Of a DNA stretch of 64,000 nucleotides, positions 1,757 through 64,000 are shown one piece after another. Made by a program: the position numbers and the translations under genes. Source of the DNA: Antedon mediterranea. Taxonomy: Eukaryota > Echinodermata > Crinoidea > Comatulida > Antedonidae. The notes below the pieces were generated by a model that searched no databases, had not been told where the DNA came from, and worked only from the letters and a program-made list of their open reading frames with translations. How positions within the stretch are numbered: position 1 is the stretch's first letter; every line of letters begins with the position of its first letter. The stretch is from NCBI RefSeq assembly GCF_964355755.1, contig NC_092678.1, positions 22,856,365 to 22,920,364 of the forward strand, given 5' to 3'.

Positions 1757-2073
1757 ATATTAATTGTTTTCATGTTTTACAAATAATATACCACTATACA
1801 CAGTAAAACATTGCGATTTAATACTTTGTTGAAACTATCACCGTCGATTGAAATAGTAGGCCTATAGTACATGTAACGATACATCACTACGACGTGTATA
1901 ATATGTTGTTCTGCGTTTAGGGCATGTGATGTACCGTAGGCCCATCCTCTACTGGTTTTACAACGCTACTCATGCCAGTGAGGGAAGGGTGATGATGTGG
2001 GTGGTTTAACTGCAATAATAAAGATGTGTACATAATATACGGCGAGTGAAAGCGCTAGCTCATTATCTGTTTA

Positions 2074-3445: not shown

Positions 3446-3721
3446 CAAAGAGTCATAACATAATGTAGTTTAATATTTATGTTAACGTAGGCCTACAAAC
3501 ATTATGATAATAATTATTTTAATTTAATATGCCGATTTTGTCAGGAAATGTGCAGATTTAGTGATATTTTATTCCATTCTTATTGGTTTAAACTTGTTTC
3601 TTCCATTTTCCAATAAACCATGGCGCTAGGCATATCCATTGTATTTAGTAACACAACGAGACCCTTCACAATTATTGTATTTGCTCTGCATTGAGTAGGC
3701 CTATTGATATTGCAGATTAAA

Positions 3722-4040: not shown

Positions 4041-4369
4041 TTAATCAAACGCAAACAATTAAAGTAATCAAATATTTTTTTTAATTATCCAGTTAATATA
4101 ATAATAGGCCTACTATATACCAGCACCTTTTTCAATACTGTGTAAAGTGTATTTATTTATTATAACTATGCGTAGTCCGAAAACAGCGTCATAGTAACGT
4201 AGTTCTGAATGTGTGTACTTTTGTGGACATTTTCAATAAACCAATTCAAACAACCTTGGCGTGTTTGAAGTTAGACTATTATTTTTCGACAAAAGGCAGT
4301 TAAATAAAGATTTTAACAATTTTTTTTGTAAATATAAACCTCTAAAAGTCTCTGAGAAATGTGGAATGC

Positions 4370-4844: not shown

Positions 4845-6265
4845 GCTCGCGTACCATCTAGGTCGTGCCCACAGATGGCTCTCGAATACATAATAATTTC
4901 AGCGTTAAAAAACTGGCGGTTTTAAATGTACGTACCGCAGGACAATAATACATGTCGTTTACAGGAACGAATAAATAGACACTGTGATTTCTGTACTGAA
5001 CTAAAATTAGCACCCTGGGAATTACTTCCGAAAGAGAAACTTGTCACAAAATGAGACCAATTTTTTAAGTCAAATTTAAACAAACTTAATTTGTGTTTTG
5101 TATGTAACATTAGGGTTGAGGGATGGGAAAGAGGATGGGTGCAAAGAGGAATAATTTTTTAATATATTCTTTATCCATGTAGTAACGAAATATTAATTGT
5201 TTTCATGTTTTACAAATAATATACCACTAAACACAGTAAAACATTGCGATGTAATACTTTGTTGAAACTATCACCGTCCTATTCGATTGAAATAGTATAG
5301 TACATATAACGATACATCACTACGACGTGTATATGTTTGTATAATGTAAAACAATTTGTGAAAACCACCCCTATTCGGGGCAAATCATAAATTCGATTTA
5401 ATCGTCAATAAATATTAAATTATCTAACTCAACTTAATGGTTTTCAATTGTTTCTTAGAGCCAATTCATACTTAAGTTGGTTCCTAACCCTACCCACCAA
5501 AGTTGTTCTGCGTTTTGGGCATGTGATGCACCGTAGGCCTATCCTCTACTGGCTTTACAACGACTCATGCCAGTGAGGGAAGGGTGATGATGTCACGTGG
5601 GTGGTTTAACTACAATAATAAAGATTTGTACATAATATACGGCGACTGAAAACTCTAGCTCATTATCCGTTTAAAAAAATCTATTAAATTAATAATGAGC
5701 ACAGATTGAAAAAAAAATGGATCGAATTTCTGTTATGAGTATACAGTACTTGCCTTTACGACGCCTGAGGGAATAGACACTTGTGGAACAGAGATTGGAA
5801 TGTTCCATTCATTTCAAATCAATACATTTGTATAAACGTATATTAAATCTATCAAAATAGTATTTTTTAAAGAAAATCGACCTGTCTTCAACATTATGAT
5901 GCTGTACTCGAGCTGTTCAACCGGTTTTCAGCCATTAAAAACAATTATCGTAGGAGGAGATAGGAAAATGCGAAGCATCCTCGTATTATTGTCTGCGGGT
6001 ATTTTTCAAGATGGACATACATTAGACAGTGTATACCACGATCGGAAAACACCCCTATTTGGGGCAAATCGTTGAACCTAAATTCGTTTTAATCGTCAAT
6101 AACTAATTATCGAACTCGATTTAATTATTAAACAGGGTTACATCAGGTGGTTAAAATCAGTACCGAAAGTACGAACCAACTTTACATACCATCGAGTAAA
6201 CATTCTAGAAATTACGCGCGATTTACCGAATTTTGCCCTTACGTAAATTTATATATAGATAATAA
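4845..6265 (+). repeat. Composite repeat R1-R2, copy 2 (reference empty site)
   Basis: The cleanest copy: it lacks the LINE and R3 insertions of copy 1 and most of the GGCCTA micro-insertions of other copies. Contains the typical AACACCCCTATTTGGGGCAA and CATACCATCGAGTAAACATT. Upstream word ACGGAGCGGAAGCGTGCGCC (about 4752) recurs at 6451. Confidence 0.65.
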
Positions 6266-6739: not shown

Positions 6740-7170
6740 AATGAAAGTCACAAACGGCTGGTGGATTTCAGCAATATCAACATTGCAATTTAAACAGCAA
6801 ATTTCACATTTTATATAGGCCTACACGTTGTTATTGTCCTATGGCTTAAACTTTACTTGTTGATTTTCCGATTTTTAATGAACCATGACTTATTCATTCT
6901 TTGTGTTTAGTAACAAAGACGAATATTTCCTTTACAACTAAATCATGATATCGTAGAGTTAATAACGTTAGGTGAACTAAATAAATTGAAAGGACTGTTA
7001 TGGTACAGTACGTCCATTCGTCTTTTATCAATTCAACTACAACTATATCATAGTATTGCGTGCTCACTTTACAATAAACAACATCACCTTAATCAATCCT
7101 TTTGTGCTTTGTGTGGTGGTATATTCCAGGTCCATTATATCTAACTATAGGAAACTTATAATCCCAACAA
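6740..7170. repeat. Dispersed repeat shared with 45920-46186 (R4 family)
   Basis: Shares GGCTGGTGGATTTCAGCAAT, TTGTTATTGTCCTATGGCTT and ATCATGATATCGTAGAGTTA with 45920-46186, then continues into the R4 sequence of 3722-3940. The next stretch, 7171-7800, is AT-rich with a short GGTGG run near 7189 and nothing else I can name. Confidence 0.55.
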
Positions 7171-7984
7171 AAGCGAATATTATTTTCGTGGTGGTGGTGG
7201 TTTCATCATAATTATATATTAGAGTGGGCCTACAGTAATTCAAATAATATTGATGTTAACTGTGATATCTATATTTTTGCCTACAAAAATTATTTATAAG
7301 CACATTTATCATATTTTTTTCCACGGACCATTTGTAAAACATTTTATAATGTAAATGCTATCAAAGTAAAATATGTTTATAAATAAATAAATATTGTTAT
7401 AATAATTCAATTAACCATGGCCTTTAAGTGTATTAGCCGATTTTGTTAGGAAATGTGCACAAATCTAGTTGGATTAACAGTCTTATAAATTAAGATTTCA
7501 TTTACCCACAGCATGTCTGTTATTATAAACTAATCATGATTTATTACTATCTTCTATCAGGAAAGTTTGATTTATAATCATTTCAGTTGTTTAATTACAC
7601 GATATAGATATTATCTCTATGATTACACCAGTAAAGAAACTAAGTTGGAAACTGAATTTCAAATGTATTATTCAAATTATAGTTTTCAATGTTAATAGGC
7701 CTATGACGTAATTAAGACGTTATACCAAGATGAATGTCTGTTTATTATAATTATTGTTTTCGTTGACATTTTGCAAAAGTACCTCTAAAATGTAGAATTT
7801 GCAATGTCTATTAGAATAGTAGTCCTAGTTTTAAAACACGCCAAATTTAATTTCCAGGTTGACCTATCGATTTTAAAACCAATACAAAACGTAACGAAGC
7901 ATAAATATAATGCATACGGTATGTTATTTAATCAAGGCCATTGGGATGCAAAACGAATTATATACTGTAGGAATAAGGTTGTTA

Positions 7985-17099: not shown

Positions 17100-18230
17100 T
17101 TTAATTTACAAGTAATTCAATTTATTTTCTCAATTCAATTTATTTTCTCAATTCAATTTATTTCCACAATATAATAACATACAGAATAATAAATACAATG
17201 AAGTAATCATGTGGGGGAGGGTCATGTAAGTCATAAAGACTTTAAGTTTGAGCCACCCAAGATATAACATTAAATACAAATACGAAAAAGAAAAACATAT
17301 ATACATAAACTAATAATACATAAAAAAAACAAAGCTACAATTTCTATTTAAACCATTTTATCCGATCTTAACTGGTCTTATAAAATATATATATTTAACG
17401 TTCATCATATCTTGAAAATAAATAGTTCTTGTATACTAATTTAAATTTAGAAATTATAGGTGCATTTTTAATATCTACATGGATTGAATTCTATAATTTA
17501 GCTCCATGGTATTTAATAGAGTTCTTGGTCAAATTGTGTGTACATTTAGGTAAAAGATAATCATTTGCATTACGTGTATTATGACTTTGTAGTTGACTAT
17601 GTTTCATAAAGTAGTTATTAAATGATTTTGGAGTTTCTTATTTTTGTATTTGTACATAAAGAAAGCAGATTGCAAACTATTGATATCATAGGCCTATTTA
17701 GTGGTTTGGTATGGGCTAGATAAGTTGATTTAGAACAAATACGAAGCGCTTATTTCTGTAATTTAAAGAGATGGTCCAACTTTGTAGTTTAACCGTAGAA
17801 GTCCATGGGCATTGAACATATTTATTTGTAACAGTTCCCCATAACAAAATTACAATACGACAAATATGGAAGAACCGTGGTATTATATAATGAAAAAAAG
17901 AATATTTATTGGTAAAATATATTGAAGCTTTCTCATTACTCCATTTCTTGAAACCTGAGTAGAAATGTCAATTGTGATTCAAAGAAAATTTGTATGTTGT
18001 TTTTCTTTAATTAAAATATTATCAATTTAAATTATTATTATTCCCTCTGACGTGTCTTGCAAACTATTTAAAAAAATAGTTTTATCAATATTCAGCGATA
18101 GTTTATCAGCCTTAACCGATCTTGAGACACAAAGTAATTCCCTGTTAAGTATTTCAAAAAGATTATTAATATTTTTATCATCAGCATATAATATAACTAT
18201 AAAATGGAAAAACACATAGAACAAGTAAAT
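17100..18230 (-). mobile_element. Degraded LINE reverse transcriptase fragment
   Basis: Frame 18224-18027 encodes VILYADDKNINNLFEIL then VKADKLSLNIDKTIF, the YADD active-site motif and the KANKLSLNxxKT motif of Jockey/CR1-type reverse transcriptases. The following 0.9 kb on the minus strand gives broken frames with the usual C-terminal flavour. Near 17120-17168 a 19-bp unit (TTTATTTTCTCAATTCAAT) is repeated about 2.5 times at the 3' end. 18231-18920 has nothing clear. Confidence 0.65.
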
Positions 18231-18998
18231 GAATTGAAATAAATAATAGAATAAACATGGCTGTATTTACAATTTCGAATTGAATTTAAAAGATACAAAG
18301 AATCATTATAAAGGCTAGCACGCATTATCTTTTATAGCATAGTCTTAGCCTATAAAAGGTTAAACCGATACCTATAACAAACCCACGTCAAGTATTTTTT
18401 TAATGGATAAAAACCAAAAAAACGAATTAAAATCAATAACAAAAAAGATCTGCTATCAATTGTATAAAAATGTATAATCAAGAAGTCAAAAAAATGTATA
18501 GAAAATATAAGTTTGCACCACGCATAAACAAAGCTACAACTTTATGTACATATTTCATTTGTTCATAGGATAATTTCTTTTCATAGATATTAACTTGTTT
18601 TTGATAATTGTACCATTTTTATAACCTTCACCTAGAATTTTAATAACGGTATCTTTAATAAAAAGACGTATCAAGTTTGAAAAATATAGATAAAAATAAG
18701 AGTAAAATAAAGATAAATATATTAGTATACTTCCGGTGACAGATTAACATCGTTAACATTCTATTTAAATCTGTAATTCTTACGTGGTGATATCAAAAAA
18801 TCGTTCAATTATTTGATTGATAAAATATGATATTTCTAAGAGATGTAACTGTAATTGAAATGTATAACTATCGATTAGCGTCACTATCGATATTCGAAAC
18901 ATCACTCAGCTGTAAAAAGATGCAATTTATTTTTTCTTTAAATATGTCATCTATACATAGGCCTATATACAAAAAACAAACGAAAACATTCCAAATGT

Positions 18999-21049: not shown

Positions 21050-24000
21050 CTGAAATATTAAAAAAAACAGATTATAAATTGTGCCTACCATCTATTAAAA
21101 TAAATATAATATATACATGAGAAACAATAAAAGCAACATCGGACCTACTTACCTTGTCTTAATTCATCGTTGGGAATGTAGAATAGCCCTAAAAATACTG
21201 TAAATATTGTGACCATCGTCGCCACACCTAGGCCTACTATAAAAAACAAACAAAACATTTTACCATTATTTTTTAAGCATTTTTATTCCTTAACGTATTC
21301 ATTCCTTAACATATTCTTTTCTTAACGATTTCATTTCTTTAACGTATTTCATTTATTTCTTAACATAATTATAATCTTAATAATAATCTCCCAATTCATT
21401 TTTTTTAACATATTAATTTCTTAAAATAGCATACGACATTCATTTCTTAGCATATTAAAGACACTATACCTATGTTTTTTTACCTAATTTAAGCTCACAC
21501 ACTAAATTTTATGTAAAAATAAATACTACATGCGATAGTTTTTGTCGCCGTTAAAAATGTGAAAAATAAGGCGATTCTAATAATTTTAGCGGCCCGCTAT
21601 AAATCCCAACATGTATCGCGCGCTATTTTCTCTTTTTCACGCTGCTGCTCTAGCCCGCTACGTCACAAGAGATAAATCATTCAGATATAAAGCATAGCTG
21701 CAGTTATAGTACTAGACACTGACATTTTTGCAAAAAATGATTCTCGACTATAATTTATAGGTACCACCTGTTGAATCCAAAAAACGTCTGGGAAAAGAGT
21801 CTAACGACAAATCCCAAAGCATTTCTGGTATTTATGAGTCCCATGATATTACTAAAATTCGCTGTCAGATAGTCATTGAATTATTATCGAAAAAGTCCAT
21901 TGAAGTTTTTGTTTGTAATAGGATACTTGAAGTATCTAGGCGTGATGAAGTGACCCCCAGACGTGACCTTAGCAATAACAATAAGCGAGCAGCGTTTTTT
22001 GTAAGAAATATTCTTGTTAAATCATAATTTACCATACAACTTACATTTAAGACAAGGAATGACTATGGTTTAATGTTTTTAAAGTAATATGCATTATTTT
22101 TACAAAACGTCACAAATTGTAGGGAATGGGTCTTTAACTTAATATCATTTTTAACTTATTCATTTTTCAACATGTTCATTTTTATTAGAATATATATTCT
22201 TTTCGTAACCAATTCCTTTCATTTCATCACATATTCAATATTAATTCCATGTGTGAAATTGCATTTTGAATTCGTCAATGATCTATTTGTGTATTATAAC
22301 CTTGAATTCAAAAAAAATATAAGTTGTTTAAATTAAAATAATTCCCGTATATAAATTTGCTGATACATATTTTGCTATTTAAGGCCCTGTTCAGACCCAT
22401 GGCGTTAGACCGTTTAGCGTACGACGCTAAAAGAATGTGTGTCTGAACAGTTGGGGATTAGCGTACAACGCGTCATACAACGGTTGTAGCGTTGTAGTGG
22501 AAAACGGTTGATAGTACCGTTTTAGCGTACGACGCTACTGTAAGTCAACGTTGTATCCAATCAGAACGTTTCCTGTTATGACGCGAAACAAGGTTTGACC
22601 TAGGCTGACATCTTGTATCGTCAATGTGTGAGATGGATTTCAATAACAAAAAGGCCAGAATAAATAAGGCCTAACTACACTACAAATACAACTGTTACAA
22701 AGGCTACAAACCATTATCAACTGATTACCATTATATTTTCTAACAAATGACATAAATACATGCACCTTGTATTTAAACATAGGGACTATGATCCCATCCG
22801 CTTTTAGGCCTAGCTAGGCCTAGAGCCATTCACGCATTTCATTCAAGCTAAAAACTAGCGTGGGACATCAAGTCACTCATTCATACAAGGCAGACTAGAC
22901 TGGACAAGTTTAATGCTGAAAACCCCCTAACTCCTAAAAAAATCAGTAAACAAACAAGGGGTGTCCCTTTTATTAGCAAGTTAAGGGTTATTTTCAACCG
23001 ACTGGACCAAAGAATATATATCTTTGACTGGACTGGATAGACTAATCACAATCATTTTTTTCTTCATCATATTACGAGGCCTGCTTTATTTTCGTAACAC
23101 AAGAGCCTGGGGAAAATGTTTTTTACTACAAAATAAAAACAATAGAAACAGAAATTTGGCTTTACTATATTTTTCTTAAATAAATGCTGAGGTATGTTTT
23201 ATTTACGGCAAATTTTGTCATAATTGTAGGGCTGAGATCTAGGCCTATATACAGTGGAAATAATGATGAAAACACGTGGGTAAGAGCACATGAATATGCA
23301 ACTGGAAACAACCCGAATGACGTACTTCCGTTGTAACGATAATCGTACGCTATGGGTCTGAACACCTCGTTTTTTTCTCTGCGGTTTGTAACGTGACCTT
23401 GATAGTAACGTTGTACGCTAAAACGGTCTAACGCCATGGGTCTGAACAGGGCCATAGTTTATGATTTACTGTATTTTGGATCACTTGACAGTATTTAATA
23501 ATATCTTTGAATGATGCATTGCATTTAGGCCTAAGCACATTTAAACCTAGATATGTTTTATTCAAATTGTAAAGTGCAATATTTTTCCACAGTGCCGCGC
23601 CTTTTCATTGTCAATTTTTTGATCCACGATAAACTAATAGATACGATTCACTTTTAATCCACTTAATTCATATTCGGTGGTCGTTGTGCCTCTTTTAACA
23701 CCCTCGGATCTATTCCAAATAAATTTTAAAAATATTGTGTTTAACTTTTTCACGACCTCACTGTAAAACAAAATTCAGTAATTTTACATAAAAAGTATGT
23801 GAAGCAGAGATGCCAGAAACTTCTGTAGGTACAGACGTTTCTGTAGATTTTTACGGAAGTTTCTTTAAAATTACAGTTGATCTGTAAATTTACTAACAAG
23901 TTTTACAGATATATATGTGTTTGATTAAAGACATTTATGTAAATTTACAAACTGATGTTTATAAACAATACAGACAATCTGTAAATTTACAGATATATTT

Positions 24001-27000: not shown

Positions 27001-30000
27001 GTAATGTGTTTTAGTGAAACTTTTTTTTATCCTAATGTTTTAATCTTTTAATTAACTTTTAGGCCTATGTATTTTATATATTGTAATATCCAATCATAAT
27101 TATTTGATTGCAGTAAAAGAATTTGCATTTTAAGCTTTGAACTCACGATTAATATACATACCATCAACAAATAGTTTTCTTTCTGCCCTTGTTCCAATAC
27201 AATCTGCAAACATTTTTAATTGTTTTGGATTATCTGTTAGCCGTGATTTAATCTCAAGTTGAAGCACGAAGTCCCAAACATTTGTAAAATCATATAGTTC
27301 GTACGTACCAATAAGTTTTCTGAAAGCTGCTTGGTGAATAAGTAACATGGCTTTAAACAGTCGCTTACGAAATGATGATAACTTAGTTTCATAAGTATAC
27401 TGAATATTATTGTCGTTTATATAACCTTCTACCAAATCTTTAGCACTGCTAACGCTGGTAAGTTTCGTAATCTCTAACAAAAGGTTAACTTTAGTAGGTG
27501 AGATTAAACCTTGGCTTTCAAGATAATCGAATAGATCATCACCACTGATTTCTGGATGTGTAATGTCAAAGTGACGTCTATCTAAATGTTCAAAGAGGCA
27601 GAATCGTAACCATTGGTATCTAGGCCTTTCACCGTCAACATAGTATTTACTGATTTCAGCTTTCAAGCTTTGAAACTTCCCATTAATATCATCTGCCGTT
27701 CCATGCACTGTGTTGTCTGCAAAGCATAAATTACATTACTTTACATTAAATTTACTTCTATACCAATTGAGTTAAAATAATGATTTAGTTAAAATAAAAT
27801 GTTATAATAAACTTTTTATTTTGCGTTTGTTGTATCTCGTAAGAAACATAACCAAACAAATGAAGACGTTAAACTTTGTTTAGACAGCGTAGTTAGGCCT
27901 ACTGTCACCCATCGACCCATCGTATCGTTTATTTTGTAATATCATCTGTAAAGATAGTAGTATAAAATACATATGGCTATAGGCTTCTTACATGAAGATA
28001 CCAAGTTATGTTTAATTAACACTTGTTCTAAATTTAAATTCACAAAATAAAATTCTAAAATAAGTTAAAATATTAATATAAATTACGCTTCGCTCGCGTA
28101 CCATCTAGGTCGTGCTCACAGATGGTTCTCGAATAGGCCTACACAGTATTTCCAGCGAGAAAAAAATAGAGATTTCAAATGTACGTACCGCAGGACTATA
28201 ATACATTGTCGTTTACAGAAACGAATAAATATACACAATGATTTATGTAGTCAACCAAAATTAGCACCCTGGGAATTACTTCCGAGAGAGAAACAAAATG
28301 AGTCAAATTGTTTTATTTGGACTCATTTAAACAAACCCAATTTGTGTTTTGTATGTAACATTAAGGGTTGAGGGATGGGGGAAGAAGATAGGTACAAAGA
28401 GGAAACATTTTAAAATATATTCTTATCCACTCAGTAACGAAATATTGTTTTTAATGTTTTATAGGCCTATAAATAATATACCACTAAATACAGTAAAACA
28501 TTTACGATTTAATACGGTACTTTGTTAAAACTCTCACTGTCATAGTCGATTGAAATAGTAAAGTACATGTAACGATACACCACTACGACGTTTATATATT
28601 TTTTAATTATTAATTAATACAAACGTTGAGAAGCAACTGTCAGTAATAACGTTTATTTATTTGTATATTATATGTTTATAATCTAACAGTAGGGCCTACC
28701 CACACTCACAGTAATAAAGTTTATTTGTATATATTTTTATATTACATCTAACAGTACCAACACTCACAGTAAGAAATTTGCGATTCAAATTGCGATCAAA
28801 AGTGGTTAATACCTTAACAGTATTGTACAGCATTGCAATACTATTTATGTTTATTCTCCAAGGGGGCCCATAAATCTAAATCTATACCTCTATGGTTAAA
28901 CCAAATAATTTGGAATGTTCCATTCATCACAAATCAATACATTTGTAAAAACGTATATTAAATGTATCAAAATAGTATTTTTTAAAGAAAATCGGCCTGT
29001 CTTCAGCATTATGATGCTGTACTCGAACTGTTCAATCGGTTTTCAGCTATTAAAAACAATTATCGTAGGAGGAGATAGGAAAATGCGAAGCCTCCTCGCA
29101 TTTTTGTGGCGGGTATTTTTCAAGATGGACATCCATTAGACAGTGTATACCACGATCGGAAAACACCCCTATTTGGGGCAAATCGTTGAACCTAAATTCG
29201 TTTTAATCGTCAATAACTAATTATCTAACTTAATTTAATTAGTAAACAGGGTTACATCAGGTGGTTAAAATCAGTACCGAAAGTACGAACCAACTTTACA
29301 TACCATCGAGTAAAAATTCTAGAAGTAAGGCGCGATTCACCGAATTTTGCCCTTACGTAAATTTATATATAGATAATAAGCAACCAAATTCCAAATTTAT
29401 TCCATAGCTAATTCTTCTTCATTAAATTATGATTAATTAGATTTTGATATTTTTGTAATTACTTTCACACGGTCATTATTATTATTTACTCAGTTAGGAA
29501 ATGTATTCTTAAGTTCCTCAGCTACCCACAGGTGATGATTGTACTTTGTAATTCAATACAATAAAATACTTACCATTATGTATATATGGTTTACGTTTTC
29601 CTTTGCCTATAACAATAAAATTAAATATCAAATGTGTATTATGATTAAAACTGATCTAAATAATTCAGTTGATTTTCGATGAACATTAATCAGGTTTGAT
29701 CTATTGATGGAGTTGCGTCAATTTTATACGATGACATTATAGTCAGTTTTAGTACTGTATATAGGCCTATATCCAATATATATAAACATGTCTTCAAAAA
29801 AGTTGGAGATTTTTCATTAAATTTAGATAACAAAGCTAAAATTTAAGGTATATTTCAGGATTACTACAGAGCATGCATGGTTTAAGTTCATTTGATGATT
29901 ACTTCTTCTTCTTTTTTTATTATTATTAGTTACAGCAAAGAAAAAATAAATTAAAAGAGGCTTTTGAATACATTGCATAACATTATACCTCCATGGGTCA

Positions 30001-31139: not shown

Positions 31140-31146
31140 TTTTAAT
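30629..31146 (-). CDS. Gene B first coding exon: tandem DED
   Basis: The acceptor TTTTCAG precedes ATTAAAAATG; the start codon is at 31139. It encodes 170 residues with two DED-like repeats (KYRMFLEKLSKLYAGTEV through LFNTLTRNRFISKTDVRLLL; YRRALFTTLTNV through AVYHIEKAGNLDSQQQIEIF). The donor is ACTAG|GTATGT, phase 1. It is paralogous to the first exons of genes A and C. No copy of the conserved leader block is visible upstream; 31637-32010 is instead duplicated at 37-380. Confidence 0.75.
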
Positions 31147-32129
31147 CTGAAAACAAAAATCTATTACTAGTAAAAAACTCACAATATTAACACAATTTGG
31201 AACAATTTTTATAAATTTTAGCCAGCTAAGGACTGGAAAAATCGTTCAAACGTAAGCAATTAATGTGTAGGCCTAACTTTCTAACTATGCATAGTCCCAA
31301 ATGTTCAACACACCCTGACCTGAAGAATCTTTAGTTTAAACTACATTAGGCCTACTAAATCAATATCAACATTACAGTTACTACCAACAATATCACTGAC
31401 CTATTTCAATGTATTGGAAATAACAGCCTTATAAATTAAAATTAGATTTTCTTCAACAGTATTTCTTTCTTTTTTTGATCATCTCCATTTTTTCTGATTG
31501 AAGTTTGATCAGATGCCTCGTAAACTGATCGAAACGTTTAGTGCAAGAACTATATAATACTATATGTACTGATTTATACTTTACCAGTTGTTGTTTCTTT
31601 CTGATGAACAGTAACGGTAGGCGTATTCAAAATCGACAAGACAAGTTCCAAAATGGTTGCTGTACACTGAACCGTAACATCTCAGGGTTGACTTTATCGT
31701 TTTTTCATTTTAATATCTACTTGTTTTTTTGTCTGAAACGAAACGTTTTTATGAGTCTTCTCCTAGTGTAGGCCTATGCCTACTGTTAAATCCAATTCAG
31801 AAGAGTTTGCAACAAAACTGATTTATTGAACCTGAACCTGTGTAGATCCTATTTTAATGCTCTTGTCGTGCTAAATAAATTGCCTAGGAATATAATGGCG
31901 ACAACAAGTATTTTGAAGTATTGTATGTAGAGTATTGTATATTATTCAGTAATTATTCTATTTCACTGAAGCGTGTTTGAACGGGTCAACGTCACAATAA
32001 CGAACTTTTGTGAAGAACGTGTTAACATTATACAGAAAAAAGCGCCATATAAATATGATATTAGGGACTTTTAGATTTGAGTGAACGTGCACGACGTTCA
32101 TGTCTACATGGGTCGTAGTCTACTGTTAA

Positions 32130-34345
32130 AGGCTGGTTTCCTGTCGACGTAAGAACATCACTGTTGTTGCGACTACGTCGATTTGTCGTAAGAAATGCGG
32201 ATTTTACAGGAAACCGATTACGATCGAAAATTTATAAAATCGACGCAACGTAAGAAAAATGGTAACGACAAACGATTTTACAGGAAATCGATGACCTAAC
32301 CATTGTTGCGTTACGACGTTTTCTTCCGATTTTACAGGAAACCGGGATTTTTTATCTTACGCTTGAATGAACGCCCTTGCGTCATGTTTCTTACGTCTCT
32401 TACGAAAGTTGACTTGAAGTCAACTTTCGCAAGAGACGTAAGCGCAATCGTAACAAGCAACCAATGAGCGACAAGAGTTATGACGTAATGTGTATGTCCT
32501 TATAGTGAAATAAAGCCGGACAATAACATTTGTATGTATTTACTACTATAATTTTAGCCTAATCATGTTCTAATCAGGGAGTTTTAGGGTTGAGGGATGG
32601 GAAAGCGGATAGATGCAAAGAGGAACAATTTTTAAATATATTCTTTATGCACTCAGTAACGAAATATTTTTTTCATGTTTTATAGGCCTATAATATACCT
32701 CTAAATACAGTAAAATATTTGCGATTTAATACTTTGTTAAAACTGTCACTGTCATAATCGATTGAAATATAGTCACGATACACCACTACGACGTTTATAT
32801 TTTTGGTAATTATTAATTAATACAAACGTTGAGAAGGAACTGTCAGTATAGGTTATTTGTATATAATAATGTGTTTATATATCTAACAGTAGAGCCTATC
32901 CACAATCTCAGTAATAAGTTTATTTGTATATATTTTTATATTACATCTAACAGTACGAACATTCACAGTAAGAAATGTTCGATTCAAATGAGGACCAAAA
33001 ATAGGTAATTATAATAGGTATTTACAGTATTGTTCAAGTTTATTCTCAAAGGGCCCATATATTTACCTACCGTATGTGTTAAACCAAGGGCTCATAAATT
33101 TACCTACTTGTGTTAAACCAAACTCTGGCAGACTGAGAGATTGGGATGTTCCATTCATCGCAAATCAATACATTTGTATAATCGTATATTAAATCAAAAT
33201 AGTATTTTTTAAAGAAAATCGGCCTGTCTTCAACATTATGATGCTGTACTCTAGCTGTTCAACCGGTTTTCAGCTATTAAAAACAATTATCGTAGGAGGA
33301 GATAGGAAAATGCGAAGCCTCCTCGCATTTTTGTGGCGGGTATTTTTCAAGATGGACATCCATTATTAGACAGTGTATACCACGATCGGAAAACACCCCT
33401 ATTTGGGGCAAATCGTTGAACCTAAATTCGTTTTAATCGTCAATAACTAATTATCTAACTTAATTTAATTAGTAAACAGGGTTACATCAGGTGGTTAAAA
33501 TCAGTACCGAAAGTAGGCCTACGAACCAACTTTATATACCATCGAGTAAAAATTCTAGAAGTAAAGCGCGATTTACCGAATTTTGCCCTTACGTAAATTT
33601 ATATATAGATTATAGGCCTGTAAATAATGGGTATCTTACTGCGGTAGTACTATCTCATGCTCGATTAGATATGCTTATAGGCCAATAGGCCAATGCCTAT
33701 AGTCTAGGGCCTAGGTAGGTCTAATAATAATAGGAATCTCGAAATGATTTGCCTTTTTTTAATTTTGAAAACTATTTAAGGCTAGGCCTAGAGGGCCAGG
33801 ATAATTAATTCATATTTTGATTCATACAAATAATACATAGGCCTACTAGCCTAGGCTAGTTTGATTATTTGGTCAAATCAATTCCTATTAGTAGCCTACG
33901 GTACCGTACAGTATTAATTAAGTATTTTACTAATACTAGGGCCTAGCTTATCTACTGAAAATAACATGTTGGTGTGCTGCACTGACAGGTAGGCTACAAT
34001 AACAACATTCAACATTTTGCGCGAAAAATGATAAAACCCGCTCTAAAAAGAAACACCAATCAGAGATGTTGTTTCAAATACGTCATAATCCGACCGACGT
34101 AAGAAAAAAATTTCAACTTTCGTAACAACACTAAAATCGACGTAAGCATACGACGTGTGTTTCACAGCCAAAATTTCAACTTTCGGGAGCAGCATAACTA
34201 CAGATGTTTCTCTGCGGCCCGACACGATCTTGACTAACGTCAACGACGTCAATTTTTTCTCAACTTTCGTAAGAGACGTAAGAAACGTATGAAACGCAAG
34301 AATCGTTGCAAAATTCGACTTCTTACGTCGACAGGAAACCAGCCT
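32130..34345. mobile_element. 2.2-kb TIR element with TAA target duplication and nested R1-R2
   Basis: Inverted ends AGGCTGGTTTCCTGTCGACG are identical for about 26 bp and flanked by TAA on both sides (32127-32129 and 34346-34348), as expected of PIF/Harbinger-like elements. Subterminal CTTACGTC/GACGTAAG words recur in both arms, and a 53-bp near-perfect palindrome lies at 32390-32442. The middle is a copy of composite repeat R1-R2 (32583-33612). No transposase is readable. Confidence 0.7.
32583..33612 (+). repeat. Composite repeat R1-R2, copy 4 (inside TIR element)
   Basis: Begins within the R1 part (TTAGGGTTGAGGGATGGG) and ends TATATATAGATTAT. Contains AAAGTAGGCCTACGAACC where the other three copies have AAAGTACGAACC. 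Confidence 0.65.
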
Positions 34346-34667
34346 TAAGTGGACATTACGTTGACGTGCCAGTGAACGTATAACGTAAAGATCTTGGAAT
34401 CTTACTGCGTAACCTCTAGATTAGCTATTCCATCGCTGGTGGCTTATAGGTCAGGCTGTTTGTTGCTTAGCTTAGCCTAGATCCTTCATTTTCTGAACAA
34501 AGGTTGGCGTCCTAGTGATAAAACTCGAAACCTGTATTTTTTTTTAGTTTCTTGTGAGCTTTATTCAATCAATAATTTTTTTTTTAGTCATAATAATGTG
34601 TAGTATTATATTTGCCTTGTTTTTTTATAAATATATTTGTAGCCTAGTCTATATAACAATAACACGT

Positions 34668-34711
34668 GAAGTAAAATATTGAGTCGTTTTAACGACTCGA
34701 TATTTTACTTC
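34668..34711. repeat. 44-bp inverted repeat
   Basis: Arms GAAGTAAAATATTGAGTCGT(T) and its complement, 21 bp each with one mismatch around TT. Function unknown; could be a MITE relic. The surrounding 34346-34880 has no gene. Confidence 0.6.
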
Positions 34712-34879
34712 AATAAGCAATAAGGGTATATATGAGGGTTTAAATGTTAAAAAACTGAACATTATAAAAAAATTTTAAAATATAAGACCAGAATAGTTTA
34801 TTTATTTAGATAAAATCGAGAATGATAAATATTTTGTTCATCATACGTTGAGATTATAGGTATTAAAATATTTGTTAAG

Positions 34880-34952
34880 GAGATAACCAGCATAGTGTTC
34901 GCTAAGGTTTTCCAAAAAGATTTGGAATTTTAGATTTTCATCCATTTTTAAT
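34880..34952 (-). pseudogene. Relic of a tandem-DED first exon
   Basis: The acceptor TATAG plus ATTAAAAATGG and a start at 34945 encode MDENLKFQIFLENLSEHYAG, matching gene C's first exon with one change, then homology stops. A conserved leader block lies 447 bp upstream (35399-35565). This is a dead gene copy truncated after about 20 codons. Confidence 0.7.
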
Positions 34953-35398
34953 CTATAAACGAAGAAGATAGACCTACAAATTAGATACACAATTTTCAAA
35001 CGGAATTTACTAAAGAAAAAACAATTGTTTTTCTTATCAAATTCAGTGTAGGGTCTATATTAGGCATACAGTGGCTTATTTTGACTAGTTAGGAATTTTG
35101 ATCGCACCATAATCGAATTTAGATCACGTCAGCGAAAAGTGCGACTAACCAAACCAAAATATTATTAACATTATTTTTTAACAATTAATAAACGCCAAAA
35201 ATTATTATATGATCGTATAGCCTAACAAAGCAGGAATACTGTATTGCCAAAAATGTAGGCCTACTGTATACCAGCACATTTTTCAATACTGTAGGCCTAT
35301 AAAGTGTATTTAGTCCCAAAACAGCATTATTCATTCAGTATTCATTATTTTGAATTATTACTCTTACTATATTATTATTATTACTATAATGCTCTCAC

Positions 35399-35565
35399 GG
35401 TTTGTTTGTGTTATGCTGTCTGCTTGCCTACTTCGTTAATAAACAGTCCGCCATATTCGTCTTTCGTCGTTTTGTGACGTATGTATATCCACAGTTTCAT
35501 AGATCGATAAATATAACAATGTAATACTTGATGCATAAAATATGAGCAACAGCGTCATGACCTAA
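35399..35565 (-). promoter_or_regulatory. Relic leader/promoter block upstream of the truncated DED
   Basis: Very similar to 3306-3445 (shared CCATATTCGT, TCGTTTTGTGACGTAT, ATATCCACAGTTTCATAG) and more distantly to the leaders of genes A and C. Ends at donor GTGAGA (35398). Probably no longer drives an intact gene. Confidence 0.45.
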
Positions 35566-35879
35566 AAAGTAGTTGTTAGAATGGGCCTACAAGAATATCT
35601 CATATTACATAAAATCGTATTATTTAACTTGTAAATGTCGTTACAGTTCATAAGTAACATTTTTACATATATGAATTCTGTATTACTCCTTTTTTCATTA
35701 ATTTTCTTATATTTTGTTATACACTTGACAGGATCATCATTATCATCTATCCCGTTTTAAAATAGTTCACACATTTTCATTTGTTTGTTTTTATTTTACA
35801 ACCCGGATTATACAATATATTTATATACATGATAACAAAAAACAATAATAGCTCAGTACCACCAGTAACCCGTATCACT

Positions 35880-38800: not shown

Positions 38801-39600
38801 TCACTATGCGTTTTATCGCTTTATGACCTTATCTTGATATCAGTTTAATCTAGCTAAGTCAATTTTTCACAGAATATTCCTTATGGCCAGGAATCGATGT
38901 GGTTATGTTTTCACGGTGCGCAATAAAAAATTACGCGGTCTACGCACGATTTAACGAAATCACGTTTGTAATCATATCTTAACAACCATGAATCACAATT
39001 AAATAAAATTTGGTACTCATAAATTTCAGGGCATAAATCATCATATGGCAATACAATTACGTGCGTAGCGCATGTAACGCATGCGTACGCGCGCTTAAAA
39101 TTTTCAAAATTTATTTTCGATGAAATAAGAGTACGTTTCAGGCAATTTTAAGCGTTTACAAAATTGCCATGAGTGCGCAGATTTTTGCGCGCGCACTGCG
39201 CGTTAAATGTTATTGCGCACTCTTTTTACCCGATTTCTGTTTTCTTGACTTACTTTTCAACTCGAAATTACGTTATACGAGCACGTCAAAAGTGACAGGC
39301 TACGCACGTGTAAATTAAAAAAATATAAATGTTTTTAAACATTTCAACATTTTTAAACATGTTCAGTAATTTCGGTCAGTATAGTTCACTATGTCGGTCG
39401 GTCCGTCTGTCTGTCTGTCGGTCTGTTTGTCTGTCGGTCCGGTATCACTATGCATTGTAGCACGCGACTTAATGGCTGTTGGCCTTGTTATTTTTTTGTT
39501 TTCCGTATGCAATTGAAAATTCTTTTATTTTTGTTTTTACAAGCTCCCATAACAAACTTGCACTTACAGGTTCTCTATTATTTTTTAGTATTGAAACATC
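35880..39600 (-). mobile_element. L1/Tx1-like LINE, 5' truncated and frameshifted
   Basis: Minus-strand frames read in order. 39590-39472: WELVKTKIKEFSIAYGKQK. 38690-38260: LINE N-terminal RT region. 38258-37410: reverse transcriptase with KNKTPGSDGLSVEFY, NNWRPITLLNTDYKI, VDFKKAFDS, IRQGCPLSALLF and QLADDTVLYV. 37060-36719: GGIKMPDF and C-terminal region. 36474-35916: CDKCGEIENENHLFFSC-type zinc knuckle shared across a frameshift. This order and these motifs fit the L1/Tx1 group. It is split by a 775-bp TIR element (38694-39468) and no longer has a single open frame. Confidence 0.8.
38694..39468. mobile_element. 775-bp TIR element with TTA target duplication
   Basis: Short inverted ends GTCGCGTG / CACGCGAC, flanked by TTA at 38691-38693 and 39469-39471, inserted into the L1/Tx1-like LINE. 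Inside, near each end and in direct orientation, lies CTATGTCGGTCGGTC followed by a GTCT/GTCG array and GGTCCGGTATCACTATGC (about 38718-38812 and 39390-39453). The TTA duplication suggests PIF/Harbinger-type mobilisation. No coding capacity. Confidence 0.75.
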
Positions 39601-43288: not shown

Positions 43289-43412
43289 CTGTAACAAAAA
43301 AATGTTGACGGTCTTATATTTATTTACTTTATTTATAGGCCTAAAGTTACAAGTACAGAGGTACACATGAATTGTAAACTAAAAATACACCTTCGAATAT
43401 TTCTTATCTTAC

Positions 43413-43484
43413 CTGTTGACATTTTCCATTCATTATGAAAAAAAATTTGGGAGGTTGTAAATTTTCTGTTACCCAGATTTGGCA
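43413..43484 (-). CDS. Gene C linker exon with alternative acceptors
   Basis: Donor CAACAG|GTAAGA. The outer acceptor ACCATACAG gives a 72-nt phase 1-1 exon (VPNLGNRKFTTSQIFFHNEW); the inner acceptor GTAACAG gives 53 nt, which exactly corrects the 52-nt linker upstream. Both routes reach the transmembrane exon in frame. The GNRK core matches gene B micro-exon 30053-30091. Confidence 0.45.
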
Positions 43485-45120: not shown

Positions 45121-45423
45121 CTGTAAATAACAAAATTGAGAACTAATTTTTATCAAGGACATAACTAAATGCCAACTTTATATTAGTTAATCTAATATTG
45201 AATTAAATTAATAATATGATAACGAACATTCTAAGCCTGCATTTTCATAAAAGTACAAAAGAGGCCTACATTTCTAACTATAGGCCTACATATGATTATT
45301 AAACTACATTTCATATTGAATTTTGCACAAATTATTATTATATGTTAGGCCTAATCAGTCTAATATAAAGTTAATTAATTACATATAATTACATTATAAA
45401 AGCTTATACAAATTAATGCTCAC

Positions 45424-52600: not shown

Positions 52601-55600
52601 CAAGTGAATCCCAGGAACAATCCGCCATTTTCTCACAAAAATACAGTATCAAATTTCACTATATTTTAAAAATCGTAAATGAGTTACACTCAAATTTTAA
52701 AGATGATGAGGGCTGAGTAAACGGGACCAGTGGTCCCACTCTAACTTATACTGGACAACTAAGGAGGTACCCTAGTATAATCCCACCAAGTGACTCCCAG
52801 GAACAATCCGCCATTTTCTCACAAATACAGTCTCAAACTTCACTATATTTTTTTAATCGTAAATGAGTTACACTCAAATTTAAAAGATGAGGGCTGAGTA
52901 AACGGTACCAGTGGTCCCACTCTAATTTATATTGGACGACTACGGAGGTACCTTAGTATAATTCCACCAAGTGACTCCCAGGAACAATCCGCCATTTTCT
53001 CACAAATACAGTTTCAAATTTAACTATATTTTAAAAATTGTAATTGAGGTACACTCAAATTTTAAAGATGAGGGCTGAGTAAACGGGACGAGTGGTCCCA
53101 CTCTAACTTATACTGGACGACTAAGGGGGTACCCTAGTATAATCCCACCAAGTGGCTCCTAGGAACAATCAGCCATTTTCTTACAAATACAGTATCAAAA
53201 TTTCACTATATTTTAAAAATCGTAAATGAGAGCCCCTTTCTCACAGAGTTGTGTGCCAGGAATATTGCGGGAATATACCATTACCATGCCGGTATCGTTT
53301 TCTGTGAGAACGGGTCGTCTTGGCATCATGCCGGCACCATGCCGGCATCGACATGACCTGCTTTAGACCTATAGTAATATTCTAGGGATATTCCCCGCAA
53401 TGCCAGACGGGCATTCTGTGAGAACGTATCGCCGTTATATTCCGGGGTTCCCCGTCGAGGCTTTGACACCTTGCGCGGTCAAGTGTATCACTTTGGCGCC
53501 TATTCAATTCAATTAACAATAATAATGTCGAACTGGAGGGATAATGAGATAAGAGAGCTGCTTAAAATAAGGGGACAAGAAGAAATTTGTAGCATAATCT
53601 ATAGGCCGCTAGGCTAGGCCATTAGCTCTTTGTTTGTTGGTGCCTGACCTTTCGTCACCTTGTAAATTGTAGGCCTACAGCCTTCTAAGGTGTTTTACAG
53701 ATTGCCGATGACGGCAAATTAATTGCTATACCTGTATAATATATGCACAATATACTGTACATAGCATGTATTGCATAAATATGCTATAAAGGAAGATAAT
53801 AATCTGTAACTTAACATTCGCCGCCATATCATCGCTAGACAAAAATAATAACAATAAAGGACGCCCTCAATAATTATTTTGTCAGAGACTTTTTATTGGC
53901 CGAATATGCCCGACTCCTTTCTCACAGAAAGCCGGTATATACCGGTTATATTTCCGGCACGATAGTCCGATGAGAATGGGTATATGCCGGTAACGATACC
54001 GGCACGACGCCAGCACTGTACCGGTATATTGCAGGTACATCTGTGAGAAAGGGGCTCAAGTGAATCCCAGGAACAATCCGCCATTTTCTCACAAAAATAC
54101 AGTATCAAATTTCACTATATTTTAAAAATCGTAAATGAGTTACATTCAAATTTAAAAGATGAGGGCTGAGTAAACGGGACCAGTGGTCGTACTCTAACTT
54201 ATACTGGACGACTAAGGGGGTACCCTAGTATAATCCCACCAAGTGACTCTAAGGAACAATCCGCCGTTTTCTCACAAATACAGTATCAAATTTCACTATA
54301 TTTTAAAAATCGTAAATGAGTTACACTCAAATTTTAAAGATGATGAGGGCTGAGTAAACGGGACCAGTGGTCCCACTCTAACTTATACTGGACAACTAAG
54401 GAGGTACCCTAGTATAATCCCACCAAGTGACTCCCAGGAACAATCCGCCATTTTCTCACAAATACAGTCTCAAACTTCACTATATTTTTTTAATCGTAAA
54501 TGAGTTACACTCAAATTTAAAAGATGAGGGCTGAGTAAACGGTACCAGTGGTCCCACTCTAATTTATATTGGACGACTACGGAGGTACCTTAGTATAATT
54601 CCACCAAGTGATCGACTCCCAGGAACAATCCGCCATTTTCTCACAAATACAGTTTCAAATTTAACTATATTTTAAAAATTGTAATTGAGGTACACTCAAA
54701 TTTTAAAGATGAGGGCTGAGTAAACGGGACCAGTGGTCCCACTTTAACTTATACAGGATGACTAAAGAGGTACCCTAGTAAAATCCCACCAAGTGACTCT
54801 CAGGAAAAATCCGCCGTTTTTTCACAAATACAGTATCAAATTTCACTATATTTTAAAAATCGTAAATGAGTTACACTCAAATTTTAAAGATGAGGGCTGA
54901 GTAAACGGGACGAGTGGTCCCACTCTAACTTATACTGGACGACTAAGGGGGTACCCTAGTATAATCCCACCAAGTGGCTCCTAGGAACAATCAGCCATTT
55001 TCTCACAAATACAGTACCAAATTTCACTATATTTTAAAATATTAATCGTAATTGAGTTACACTCAAATTTTAAAGATAAGGGCTGAGTAAACGGGACCAG
55101 TGGTCCCACTCTAACTTAAACTGGACAACTAAGGAGGTACCCTAGTATAATCCCACCAAGTGACTCTCGGGAACAATCCGCCATTTTCTCACAAATACAG
55201 TATCAAATTTCACTATATTTTAAAATATTAATCGTAATTGAGTTACACTCAAATTTTAAAGATAAGAGCTGAGTAAACGGGACCAGTGGTCCCACTCTAA
55301 CTTAAACTGGACAACTAAGGGGGTACCCTAGTATAATCCCACCAAGTGACTCTCGGGGAACAATCCGCCATTTTCTCACAAATACAGTATCAAATTTCAC
55401 TATATTTTAAAATATTAATCGTAATTGAGTTACACTCAAACGTTAAAGATGAGGGCTGAGTAAACGGGACCAGTGGTCCCACTCTAACTTAAACTGGACA
55501 ACTAAGGAGGTACCCTAGTATAATCCCACCAAGTGACTCTCGGGAACAGTCTGCCATTTTCTCACAAATACAGTATCAAATTTCACTATATTTTAAAATA

Positions 55601-58600: not shown

Positions 58601-60379
58601 GGACGAGTGGTCCCACTCTAACTTATACTGGACGACTAAGGGGGTACCCTAGTATAATCCCACCAAGTGGCTCCTAGGAACAATCAGCCATTTTCTCACA
58701 AATACAGTACCAAATTTCACTATATTTTAAAATATTAATCGTAATTGAGTTACACTCAAATTTTAAAGATAAGGGCTGAGTAAACGGGACCAGTGGTCCC
58801 ACTCTAACTTAAACTGGACAACTAAGGAGGTACCCTAGTATAATCCCACCAAGTGACTCTCGGGAACAATCCGCCATTTTCTCACAAATACAGTATCAAA
58901 TTTCACTATATTTTAAAATATTAATCGTAATTGAGTTACACTCAAATTTTAAAGATAAGAGCTGAGTAAACGGGACCAGTGGTCCCACTCTAACTTAAAC
59001 TGGACAACTAAGGGGGTACCCTAGTATAATCCCACCAAGTGACTCTCGGGAACAATCCGCCATTTTCTCACAAATACAGTATCAAATTTCACTATATTTT
59101 AAAATATTAATCGTAATTGAGTTACACTCAAACGTTAAAGATGAGGGCTGAGTAAACGGGACCAGTGGTCCCACTCTAACTTAAACTGGACAACTAAGGA
59201 GGTACCCTAGTATAATCCCACCAAGTGACTCTCGGGAACAGTCTGCCATTTTCTCACAAATACAGTATCAAATTTCACTATATTTTAAAATATTAATCGT
59301 AATTGAGTTACACTCAAATTTTAAAGATAAGGGCTGAGTAAACGGGACCAGTGGTCCCACTCTAGCTTAAACTGGACAACTTATAAGGAGGTACCCTAGT
59401 ATAATCCCACCAAGTGACTCTCGGGAAAAATCCGCCATTTTCTCACAAATACAGTATCAAATTTCACTATATTTTAAAATATTAATCGTAATTGAGTTAC
59501 ACTCAAACGTTAAAGATGAGGGCTGAGTAAACGGGACCAGTGGTCCCACTCTAACTTCTACTGGACAACTAAGGAGGTACCCTAGTATAATCCCACCAAG
59601 TGACTCCCAGGAACAATCCGCCATTTTCTCACAAATACAGTATCAATTTTCACTATATTTTAACATTTTTTACCGTAATTGAGTTACACTCAAATTTAAA
59701 AGATGACGGCTGAGTAAACGGAACCAGTGGTCGCACTCTAACTTATACTGGACGACTAAGGATGTACCTTAGTATAATCTCACCATGTGACTCCCAGGAA
59801 CAATCCGCCGTTTTCTCACAAATACAGTATCTAATTTCACTATATTTTAAAAATCGTAAATGAGTTACACTCAAATTTAAAAGATGAGGGCTGAGTAAAC
59901 GGTACCAGTGGTCCCACTCTAACTTATACTGTACGACTATCTAAGGAGGTACCCTAGTATAATCCCACCAAGTGACTCCCAGGAACAATCCGCCATTTTC
60001 TCACCAATACAGTTTCAAATTTAACTATATTTTAAAAATTGTAATTGAGTTACACTCAAATTTTAAAGATGAGGGCTAAAGTAAACGGGACCAGTGGTCG
60101 CACTCTAACTTATACTGGACGACTAAGGAGGTACCCTAGTATAATCCCACCAAGTGACTCCCAGGAACAATCCGCCATTTTCTCACAAATACAGTTTCAA
60201 ATTTAACTAGGCCTATATTTTAAAAATCGTAATTGAGTTACACTCAAATTTTAAAGATGAGGGCTGAGTAAACGGGACCAGTGGTCCCACTCTAACTTAT
60301 ACTGGACGACTAATGGGGTACCCTAGTATAATCCCACCAAGTGAATCCAAGGAACAATCCGCCGTTTTTCTCACAAATA
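46662..60379. repeat. 181-bp satellite array, about 70-75 monomers
   Basis: Monomers of about 181 bp (185-190 where an AATATTAAT variant is present) in one orientation, each with GAGTTACACTCAA, GGGACCAGTGGTCCC, GGTACCCTAGTATAATCCCA and AACAATCCGCCATTTTCTCA. Higher-order structure: a 2544-bp (14-monomer) repeat in the left half, for example 47579 to 50123, and a repeat of about 1846 bp (10 monomers) in the right half, for example 54971, 56820, 58664. It is broken by a TIR element at 53231-54056. No coding potential in any monomer. Confidence 0.95.
53231..54056. mobile_element. 826-bp TIR element inside the satellite
   Basis: Inverted ends AGCCCCTTTCTCACAGA are exact over 17 bp. Subterminal words GCCGGTAT, CTGTGAGAA and GTGCCGG recur inside both ends. 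No transposase is readable. The satellite phase jumps across it (monomer position about 10 on the left, about 111 on the right) and there is no target duplication, so part of the array was lost or rearranged. Confidence 0.8.
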
Positions 60380-62058: not shown

Positions 62059-62389
62059 AGTTTTTAGAATATATATTTTTTTGTTAGTAAACATTAACAA
62101 AATTATTAAATTGTTGTTTAAATTTAGTTCAGGCAGGCGTTTCTGCGCAATCCGATCTAGGGCCTAGATAGTAGTAGGCCTAGGCATATTTAATGCCGAA
62201 TACTAGGCCTAGTTTAGTTAGTATGATTAATAAAAAAAAGTCTGGGAGGATGAATGATATTGATTGGCGTCTTGATAGATGGATCAAACAAAGCTTGGAT
62301 GGATGGAAGATTAAGAAAAAAACTGAAGCTGTTCGGGAATTAGGAGTTTTTAATAAAAATGTACAAGACAATATAGCGTTTTATTAATA

Positions 62390-64000
62390 ATAACATTAAC
62401 AGAAATAATTAAATGTAATGAAATAAAAAATCGTGAGGATGTTATTGTTTGTTTTTTTTTTTTTAATAAATTTAAATTATAAATTTGATCCTCATATTTA
62501 TTTTGTTCTTCATCTTTATTTGAAAAATATTTAGTTAATTAATGTAAACATTTTTGAATACTTACAATATTAATAAATAGTAGGCTATTGACTTTTGTTT
62601 TGAATTTAAAAATGTATAGTATTTTAAAATACTATAATAAGTAATCAAATGATTATGTAACAGTTCGAAAAGTGACCAAATAATTTAATGATATATTTTT
62701 CCCTATTTCAGAAAGATGTCTGTCGTCATACTGTAAAATTGAGAAGATAGATGATTGAGTGCAAAGTGGTATTTTACACAAGAATTAAATACAAAGGCCA
62801 ATAGTAATAATAGTTTATATTTTTGATTCTTGAAAAGGAGCAGTATCCTATGGGATTACAAATAAAATCACTATTTTCACACACCTCATACTTTAAAGTG
62901 AAAGGAAATAACCAGAATTCAGTTATTATCAGTACTGTTGTTTAGGCCTATTGGCTTCTTTTGTAATACAAGAAATCAAAATAATAGAATTTTCCTTGTA
63001 TTTAAGAAGGCTAAAACCATACATTCGTAATTTATTTATTGAGTGTATTTAATAATATTCCATCTTTATTTATTAATATTGTATAAAGTGAGATTTTTCA
63101 GTATTTTTATTGCATTTTAATCCTGTCTGTAATATTGAAAGTTGAGCTAATAAAAGTGGGTTGAAAAGAACAAATTATGATTATGAATTTTAAAAATTAA
63201 TATTTAATACTTTTACTTTTTTGAAATTAAAAAAATGTAACAATTGTTTTTGTATCTAGTAATGTATGTACAGTATACTAGAGTTGTGGCAGATCGTAGT
63301 AAAATTCCCCTTGCAATGAAATAACTTCGTAGGCCTGAAGCACACAAAATAGAAAGAGAGGGTCCGAACAGGGGAAAGAACATCCCCCTGCCCATCAATT
63401 TAAAAAAAAAATAATTATAAAGACAGTTTTGGACAATATATTTGGCAATTATTACAATTCATCTCCAAAAAATGCTTCTCTCGCACATAAACTAAGCCAT
63501 CATCCCAGCCTAGGCCAACGCGGCCGACCTTGGGCGTGAAGTGCGTATCATCGCGCTGCGCCCCGCGACACTATTTATAACTATGCCTCAACCGACTGCA
63601 TACAAAATTCGTCCTCCATACAGTCAGTGTTTATTCTGTAGCCGTTTGAGGTTGGACAGTGATATACGCATATGTACTGTAAGTGTAATATCAAATGGAG
63701 TAAATTTATATAATCGAATTTTATATAGATGTTCTTTCATTTTGACGCGAAAGATAAAATAAAGTCGTACTGTTTATCGCGTAGATGTAAATCCTATTAG
63801 TCCAGTCAAAAATCACCCTCACCATGGTATAAGAACGTACCCTAATAAAATTTCATCCGTAGGTTCTACGTATATAGGTAATAACATTTCTTGATGTTGC
63901 GTCTTGCAAAACTTGGGATTTTACGAGAAAATATTAGACTTTTATACCCAATTTATAACCGCCTCATGTCGTATTATTGTGTACAGCGAATGCGACGAAG
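62390..64000. other. No gene recognised
   Basis: AT-rich sequence to about 63450, then a more GC-rich patch (63480-63660) with CGCGGCCGACC and CTATTTATAACTATG that could be a second promoter region. The short frames here show no known motif. Confidence 0.3.

Follow-up and report, generated by a model that had tools for sequence, protein, structure and literature searches.

Within the window, by which we mean the whole 64-kb stretch of DNA analysed here, a repeat occurs in four copies (A, ~982-3056; B, 4858-6263; C, 28105-29377; D, 32583-33613), and copy D carries TAGGCCTA at 33514 where its counterparts at 2963, 6170 and 29284 lack exactly 6 bp, with 0-1 mismatches in 30 bp. This raises the question of which process writes the same short palindrome at TA dinucleotides and whether it adds or removes the six bases.

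Recurrent insertion of GGCCTA at TA

The recurrent insertion of GGCCTA at TA is real and strong. The five copy comparisons on which the initial annotation had based a change from TA to TA plus GGCC plus TA are all present in the sequence, at coordinates differing by a base or so, and at 1857, 28134, 33514 and 60208 the difference is indeed an exact 6 bp at TA, but at 35292 the empty copy reads TG (Table 1). Empty counterparts of 1857 lie at 28559 (1 mismatch in 30) and 5296 (2 mismatches), a third paralog near 32750 being partly deleted. A MAFFT alignment places no gap at 1857 because the nearest paralog has a 6-bp indel of its own ~13 bp upstream; the insertion was settled by BLAST and by the copy at 28559. 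In the satellite, the 71 readable monomers comprise 70 exact matches to CTATAYTTT and the single CTAGGCCTATAYTTT.

Altogether, 36 copies of TAGGCCTA were counted in the window, and AGGCCT, which had been said to occur several dozen times, was found 44 times, 36 of them within TAGGCCTA. The comparison of the motif with controls, proposed in the same annotation and run here in the window, gave 34 occurrences outside the satellite array (46662-60379) against 0.3-0.7 expected (0.42 from base composition, 0.32 under an order-1 and 0.70 under an order-2 Markov model), making TAGGCCTA the top 8-mer by z amongst 8-mers with at least six occurrences outside the satellite. Order-2 simulations (n = 100) yielded 0.73 occurrences on average and 3 at most, and order-4 simulations (n = 60) 9.8 on average and 17 at most, the order-4 model having been fitted to this very sequence and thus already containing some of the TAGGCCTA signal. 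Amongst 4-nt inserts between TAs GGCC alone stands out (68 vs 1.4 expected), other inserts with outer G..C numbering 58 vs 55.9 expected.

We also took a census of every XY-N(1-8)-XY in the non-satellite window having an exact empty form elsewhere, defined as XY with 14-base flanks and ≤4 mismatches, a limit that the flanks of 28134 exceed, so that this site was missed. By number TA is not singled out, with 23 cases for TA, 24 for AT, 31 for GT and 29 for TC (4.26, 4.21, 10.5 and 11.2 per 1000 respectively), those for GT and TC being mostly microsatellites (tetranucleotide repeats). By content, GGCC (three cases) and CGG (two cases) stand out beside low-complexity or slippage-like inserts.

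Table 1. Positions in the window of TAGGCCTA and of other inserts between TA dinucleotides, with the copy comparison or count behind each.
Feature	Position	Comparison or remark
TAGGCCTA insertion	1857..1864	private to copy A; copy D partly deleted there
TAGGCCTA	3488..3495	motif count
TAGGCCTA	3696..3703	motif count
TAGGCCTA	4105..4112	shared with 35256
TAGGCCTA	5534..5541	paralog at 1937 is TAGGCCCA
TAGGCCTA	6816..6823	paralog at 45987 is TAGGCTTA
TAGGCCTA	7696..7703	motif count
TACGGTA, exact 5-bp insertion (CGG + TA) at TA	7915..7921	vs 4033, 2 mismatches in 30 bp
TAGGCCTA	17689..17696	motif count
TAGGCCTA	18958..18965	34 bp outside NACHT ORF 18999-21071
TAGGCCTA	21229..21236	158 bp outside NACHT ORF 18999-21071
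TAGGCCTA, first of close pair	22805..22812	motif count
TAGGCCTA, second of close pair	22815..22822	motif count
TAGGCCTA	23240..23247	motif count
TAGGCCTA	23526..23533	motif count
TAGGCCTA	27060..27067	motif count
TAGGCCTA	27894..27901	motif count
TAGGCCTA insertion in copy C	28134..28141	empty in A and B; D has no match at this point
TAGGCCTA common to copies C and D	28462..28469	absent in A and B; gap 8 bp, inexact
TACGGTA, exact 5-bp insertion	28513..28519	private to copy C; A, B and D read TA
TAGGGCCTA variant	28690..28698	7-bp gap vs nearby 73% identical copy; copy D has TAGAGCCTA
TAGGCCTA	29762..29769	motif count
TAGGCCTA	31268..31275	motif count
TAGGCCTA	31347..31354	motif count
TAGGCCTA	31769..31776	motif count
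TAGGCCTA, copy D counterpart of 28462	32683..32690	gap 4 bp, not 6
TAGGCCTA insertion, focus of this study	33514..33521	private to copy D
TAGGGCCTA variant	33705..33713	motif count
TAGGCCTA	33783..33790	motif count
TAGGCCTA followed by CTAGCCTAGGCTAG	33838..33845	motif count and flank reading
TAGGGCCTA variant	33937..33945	motif count
TAGGCCTA	35256..35263	shared with 4105
TAGGCCTA, 6-bp insertion vs 4141	35292..35299	empty copy reads TG, not TA
TAGGCCTA	43336..43343	motif count
TAGGCCTA	45281..45288	motif count
TAGGCCTA	45346..45353	10-bp gap vs 71% identical copy at 15203, inexact
TAGGCCTA	53670..53677	within satellite array, in stretch without satellite matches
TAGGCCTA in one satellite monomer	60208..60215	1 monomer matches CTAGGCCTATAYTTT, 70 match CTATAYTTT
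TAGGGCCTA variant	62158..62166	motif count
TAGGCCTA followed by GGCATA	62175..62182	possible nested, decayed second insertion
TAGGCCTA	62204..62211	motif count
TAGGCCTA	62943..62950	motif count

The direction of change can be read from the tree of the four copies, (A,B),(C,D), for which two-state columns in a 470-bp block give 9 in support of AB|CD, 1 of AD|BC and 0 of AC|BD. The insertion at 33514 is private to D, that at 1857 to A and the TACGGTA at 28513 to C, and since the root can sit on one branch only, most events are gains; the TAGGCCTA at 33514 is most simply a gain on the copy D branch, and the data support insertion precisely at TA rather than deletion. An ancestral TAGGCCTA lost to TA by deletion between the flanking TA repeats is very improbable. 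Direct repeats of TA 6 bp apart could favour such deletion, and the comparison at 35292 gives no polarity, but the motif occupies one of 71 satellite monomers, insertions confined to single copies on separate branches of the tree would call for parallel losses, and a roughly 50- to 100-fold excess would be left unexplained. Deletion, which the initial annotation had named as the outcome that would count against insertion, was accordingly rejected on the satellite and tree evidence.

Target preference, decay and related inserts

The sequence R-TA-Y surrounds 18 of 34 TAGGCCTA sites (32683 and 35256, shared with a paralog, being left out of the count) compared to 25.9% of all TAs (p = 0.0012) and 178 of 648 other TA-N4-TA words, and the preference is symmetric around TA. 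The base adjoining TA is biased towards G (21 vs 11.6) and away from T (11 vs 23.2; p = 0.0024). Of eight flank positions tested (-1 to -8), -1 alone is clearly significant, with -5 on the borderline (p = 0.05). An excess of T at position -13 (33 vs 22.6, p = 0.009 uncorrected) was noticed first and tested afterwards. The flanks of the 36 sites, compared by eye and by position from -1 to -8, have in common only the motif and R-TA-Y, which led us to reject the idea that TAGGCCTA lies within a longer repeat or MITE. Decayed neighbours of the motif and motifs that paralogs share (5534/1937, 6816/45987, 4105/35256 and 28462/32683) both speak against an assembly artefact.

Words one mismatch away from TAGGCCTA are in excess (37 vs 9.8 expected), and therefore the insertions also decay; words two mismatches away are not in excess (103 vs 129 expected, the least certain of these expectations). 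The near-equal excesses at zero and one change would be expected from a steady insertion rate with free decay, and the lack of any such excess at two mismatches is at odds with a long steady history. As a rough estimate, we infer some 34 x 8 insertions in 50 kb for each substitution per site, a rate close to 0.5% of that of substitution. Comparing C with D gives 1 event per 91 substitutions and comparing A with B 0 events in 91 substitutions, the latter figure missing the 1857 event, hidden by the neighbouring indel, which is why the estimate is rough.

The long ORFs examined contain 1244 of 5408 TAs and none of 34 TAGGCCTA (p = 2.7e-4); the intervals were chosen from 20 ORFs, include one reverse-transcriptase ORF and ORF fragments, and the four ORFs left out are also free of the motif. 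In being the top 8-mer by z, palindromic and dispersed, TAGGCCTA recalls HIP1 of cyanobacteria, which is likewise a short palindrome of very high genome-wide frequency, tied both to DNA methyltransferases and to a proposed mismatch repair (PMC4390886). A binding or methylation palindrome that is selected or maintained in this manner is nevertheless hard to credit here, since TAGGCCTA, wherever a comparison of copies is possible, originates by a 6-bp insertion and not by point mutation, its one-mismatch neighbours are in excess, and it is absent from the long ORFs examined; in arising by insertion and decaying it differs from HIP1, and on these two grounds maintenance was rejected.

A second class of insert, TACGGTA, was found as an exact insertion at two unrelated loci and appears footprint-like. 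More generally, TA-N3-TA words with outer G..C or C..G (both strands summed, paralogous copies kept in) number 138 vs 63.0 expected, an enrichment of 2.19x that stands at 1.86x without CAG/CTG. With A/T-only flanks in place of the TAs the corresponding ratios are 0.74 (AT..AT), 0.71 (AA..TT) and 0.73 (TT..AA). Some flanks containing G or C are also raised, all with smaller counts: CG..CG (16 vs 3.4), CC..GG (10 vs 3.6), AC..GT (32 vs 17.2), AG..CT (22 vs 14.4), CT..AG (22 vs 15.5) and, among flanks in the same direction, a few such as GA..GA (19 vs 12.2). GC..GC stands at 0 vs 5.9; these other raised flanks count against a strict TA effect.

Inserts of 5 nt with outer G..C between TAs stand at 1.37, and TAGGGCCTA, a 5-nt GGGCC variant, occurs four times vs 0.1 expected. 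TAGGCTA/TAGCCTA (GGC/GCC) occurs 14 times vs 3.6-4.5, two occurrences lying in a shared coding stretch and two overlapping. The GGGCC and GGC/GCC variants are compatible with imprecise joining and could partly be later decay. Outside the satellite TACAGTA/TACTGTA is found 36 times vs 10-14 expected (e.g. at 880, 2541, 10390 and 16163) and resembles a Sleeping Beauty-type scar; paralog comparison in the window showed none of these as an insertion.

Candidate origins of the insertions

We favour, with a probability of about 0.6, the reading that TAGGCCTA is the excision scar of an unseen TA-targeting cut-and-paste transposon of Tc1/mariner/pogo type, on the basis of the symmetric target preference, the TACGGTA class and the excess of self-complementary 3-nt inserts. 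Such an element would enter at TA, favouring R-TA-Y, with duplication of the TA, and at its exit the cut would fall a few bases inside each end so that part of the terminus would be left behind. With a terminus starting GGCC and a 4-nt 3' overhang, the two overhangs would be complementary, anneal perfectly and be ligated without loss, giving TA-GGCC-TA every time, whilst in a CGG or CAG overhang the outer bases would pair around a single central mismatch, giving the 3-nt class. The self-complementarity of the GGCC overhang would thus explain a uniform palindromic scar in place of the usual mixture. The transposase as maker, the GGCC terminus and the 4-nt stagger are all three what we infer. 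The initial annotation had likewise proposed an excision footprint, with two bases left from each end; the footprint is strengthened by the three lines of evidence above, and the two-base version is one of two possible readings, a GGCC overhang being equally compatible and explaining the uniformity better.

In Minos the footprint consists of the duplicated TA plus four terminal bases, i.e. a 6-bp insertion, and the overhang is not fully self-complementary; TAGGCCTA matches it in length and layout, likewise 4 nt plus TA, and differs in its bases. In Tc1/mariner excision the cuts fall a few bases within the element and the joining of 3' overhangs makes the footprint (PMC8151067, PMC2874221), which is 2-4 bp long (PMC7913693); GGCC (4) and CGG (3) lie within this range and the GGGCC variant measures 5. 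Passer, of the pogo superfamily, is described as inserting at TA in AAGTACTT with footprints of 0-4 bp (PMC9976928), and for Sleeping Beauty the sources conflict, giving the scar as CAG (PMC8151067) or TAG(T/A)CTA (PMC2874221). In Sleeping Beauty, ZB, Passer and Stowaway/Osmar5, as here, the TA is duplicated around a few bases and the target is palindromic and TA-centred, those few bases coming in these systems from the element terminus (PMC7913693, PMC9976928, PMC1925063, PMC8151067). The window differs from these systems in that known footprints are usually mixed whilst here one self-complementary 4-nt GGCC scar dominates, and in the density of perfect TAGGCCTA, ~0.7 per kb of non-satellite DNA, no parent element having been seen. 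Amongst the titles and abstract openings listed from the open-licence literature we recognised no description of TAGGCCTA micro-insertions.

The search for TA-flanked GG...CC elements suggested by the initial annotation gave nothing convincing in the 64-kb window, with GG...CC or with GGCC...GGCC termini, and this was weighed against the footprint proposal. TA-flanked inverted termini were sought up to 4 kb apart (14 bases with ≤2 mismatches or 12 with ≤3), and those starting with GGC were, among the matches listed, mainly TAGGCCTA sites facing each other. Two of 97 motif pairs within 4 kb match at 5/6 bases beyond the motif; shuffled flanks give 1.3 such pairs on average and 40% of shuffles reach 2, so the pairs 28136-31273 and 43338-45286 were discarded as elements. 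An element of ~1.07 kb at 22383-23453 has 36-bp inverted termini starting GGCCCTGTTCAGACC; this long-TIR element (GGCCC start, termini GGCCCTGTTCAGAC) was rejected as parent, bordering TAA and ATA and not directly TA.

Direct micro-insertion, in which an enzyme or repair pathway would open TA and add GGCC with the TA duplicated, or in another form place the palindromic hexamer AGGCCT between T and A, never involving a larger element, would yield an identical 6-bp difference, and this was counted against the footprint reading. The lack of a convincing parent element in the window, the single dominant uniform product and the otherwise unrelated flanks would all suit it, but it predicts neither the TACGGTA class nor the excess of self-complementary 3-nt inserts; to our knowledge no enzyme carries out such a reaction, and we hold this origin to be unlikely, if worth keeping in mind. 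Less probable still is a scar with 2 bp per side from GG...CC ends that belong to some other class of TA-targeting element. The product would be the same, but no such element was seen in the window and the self-complementary 3-nt inserts and R-TA-Y fit Tc1/pogo better.

Going back to excision by a Tc1/mariner/pogo-type element, if the scars are such footprints, transposon excisions, which sequence otherwise hardly ever reveals, are preserved in the genome as a record that can be counted and dated, and elements leaving uniform scars could be predicted from the idea of self-complementary overhangs; with no element ever present, the mutational process is one not previously known. Either way, each scar can be scored as present or absent when populations and species are compared, and the scars are a source of 6-bp indels unexpected by indel models. 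More tentatively, a sustained crinoid micro-insertion process, be it a hit-and-run transposon or a direct inserter, may write TAGGCCTA at R-TA-Y at ~0.5% of the substitution rate and, as part of the same tentative proposal, would make it the most over-represented octamer with almost no visible elements.

Sequence context of the window

The NACHT protein encoded at 18999-21071 has its best match in Antedon mediterranea (72% identity over 99%), and its seven matching proteins (8000 candidates scored) all belong to A. mediterranea or Anneissia japonica, both crinoids, which places the host among the crinoids as a relative of Antedon. Eight ORFs were scanned, giving two NACHT, one reverse transcriptase, two that match the death-effector domain below the Pfam cut-off and three without a match. 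A third NACHT-like stretch, at 41278-43057, was recognised solely by DNA similarity to 8738-10545 (74%). The NACHT (NLR-like) copies at 8494-10545, 18999-21071 and 41278-43057 form a cluster related to Antedon proteins, with weak death-effector-like ORFs nearby. No match above gathering scores was obtained in an Rfam search, nor any by megablast of 25000-37000 against phages, and neither the reverse-transcriptase protein nor the one NACHT protein searched against viral contigs found a relative there; in a viral-contig scan for two close TAGGCCTA, motif counts were ≤9 among the loci listed.

The satellite (46662-60379) is built of a 181-bp monomer in ~75 copies, and its matches end at 53230 and restart at 54057. 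An inverted repeat of ~470 bp at 61099-61569 is 79% self-complementary with smaller ones nested, and TGTC/GACA tetranucleotide arrays occupy 38724-38795, 39392-39439 and 46580-46631, the third lying about 30 bp from the edge of the satellite.
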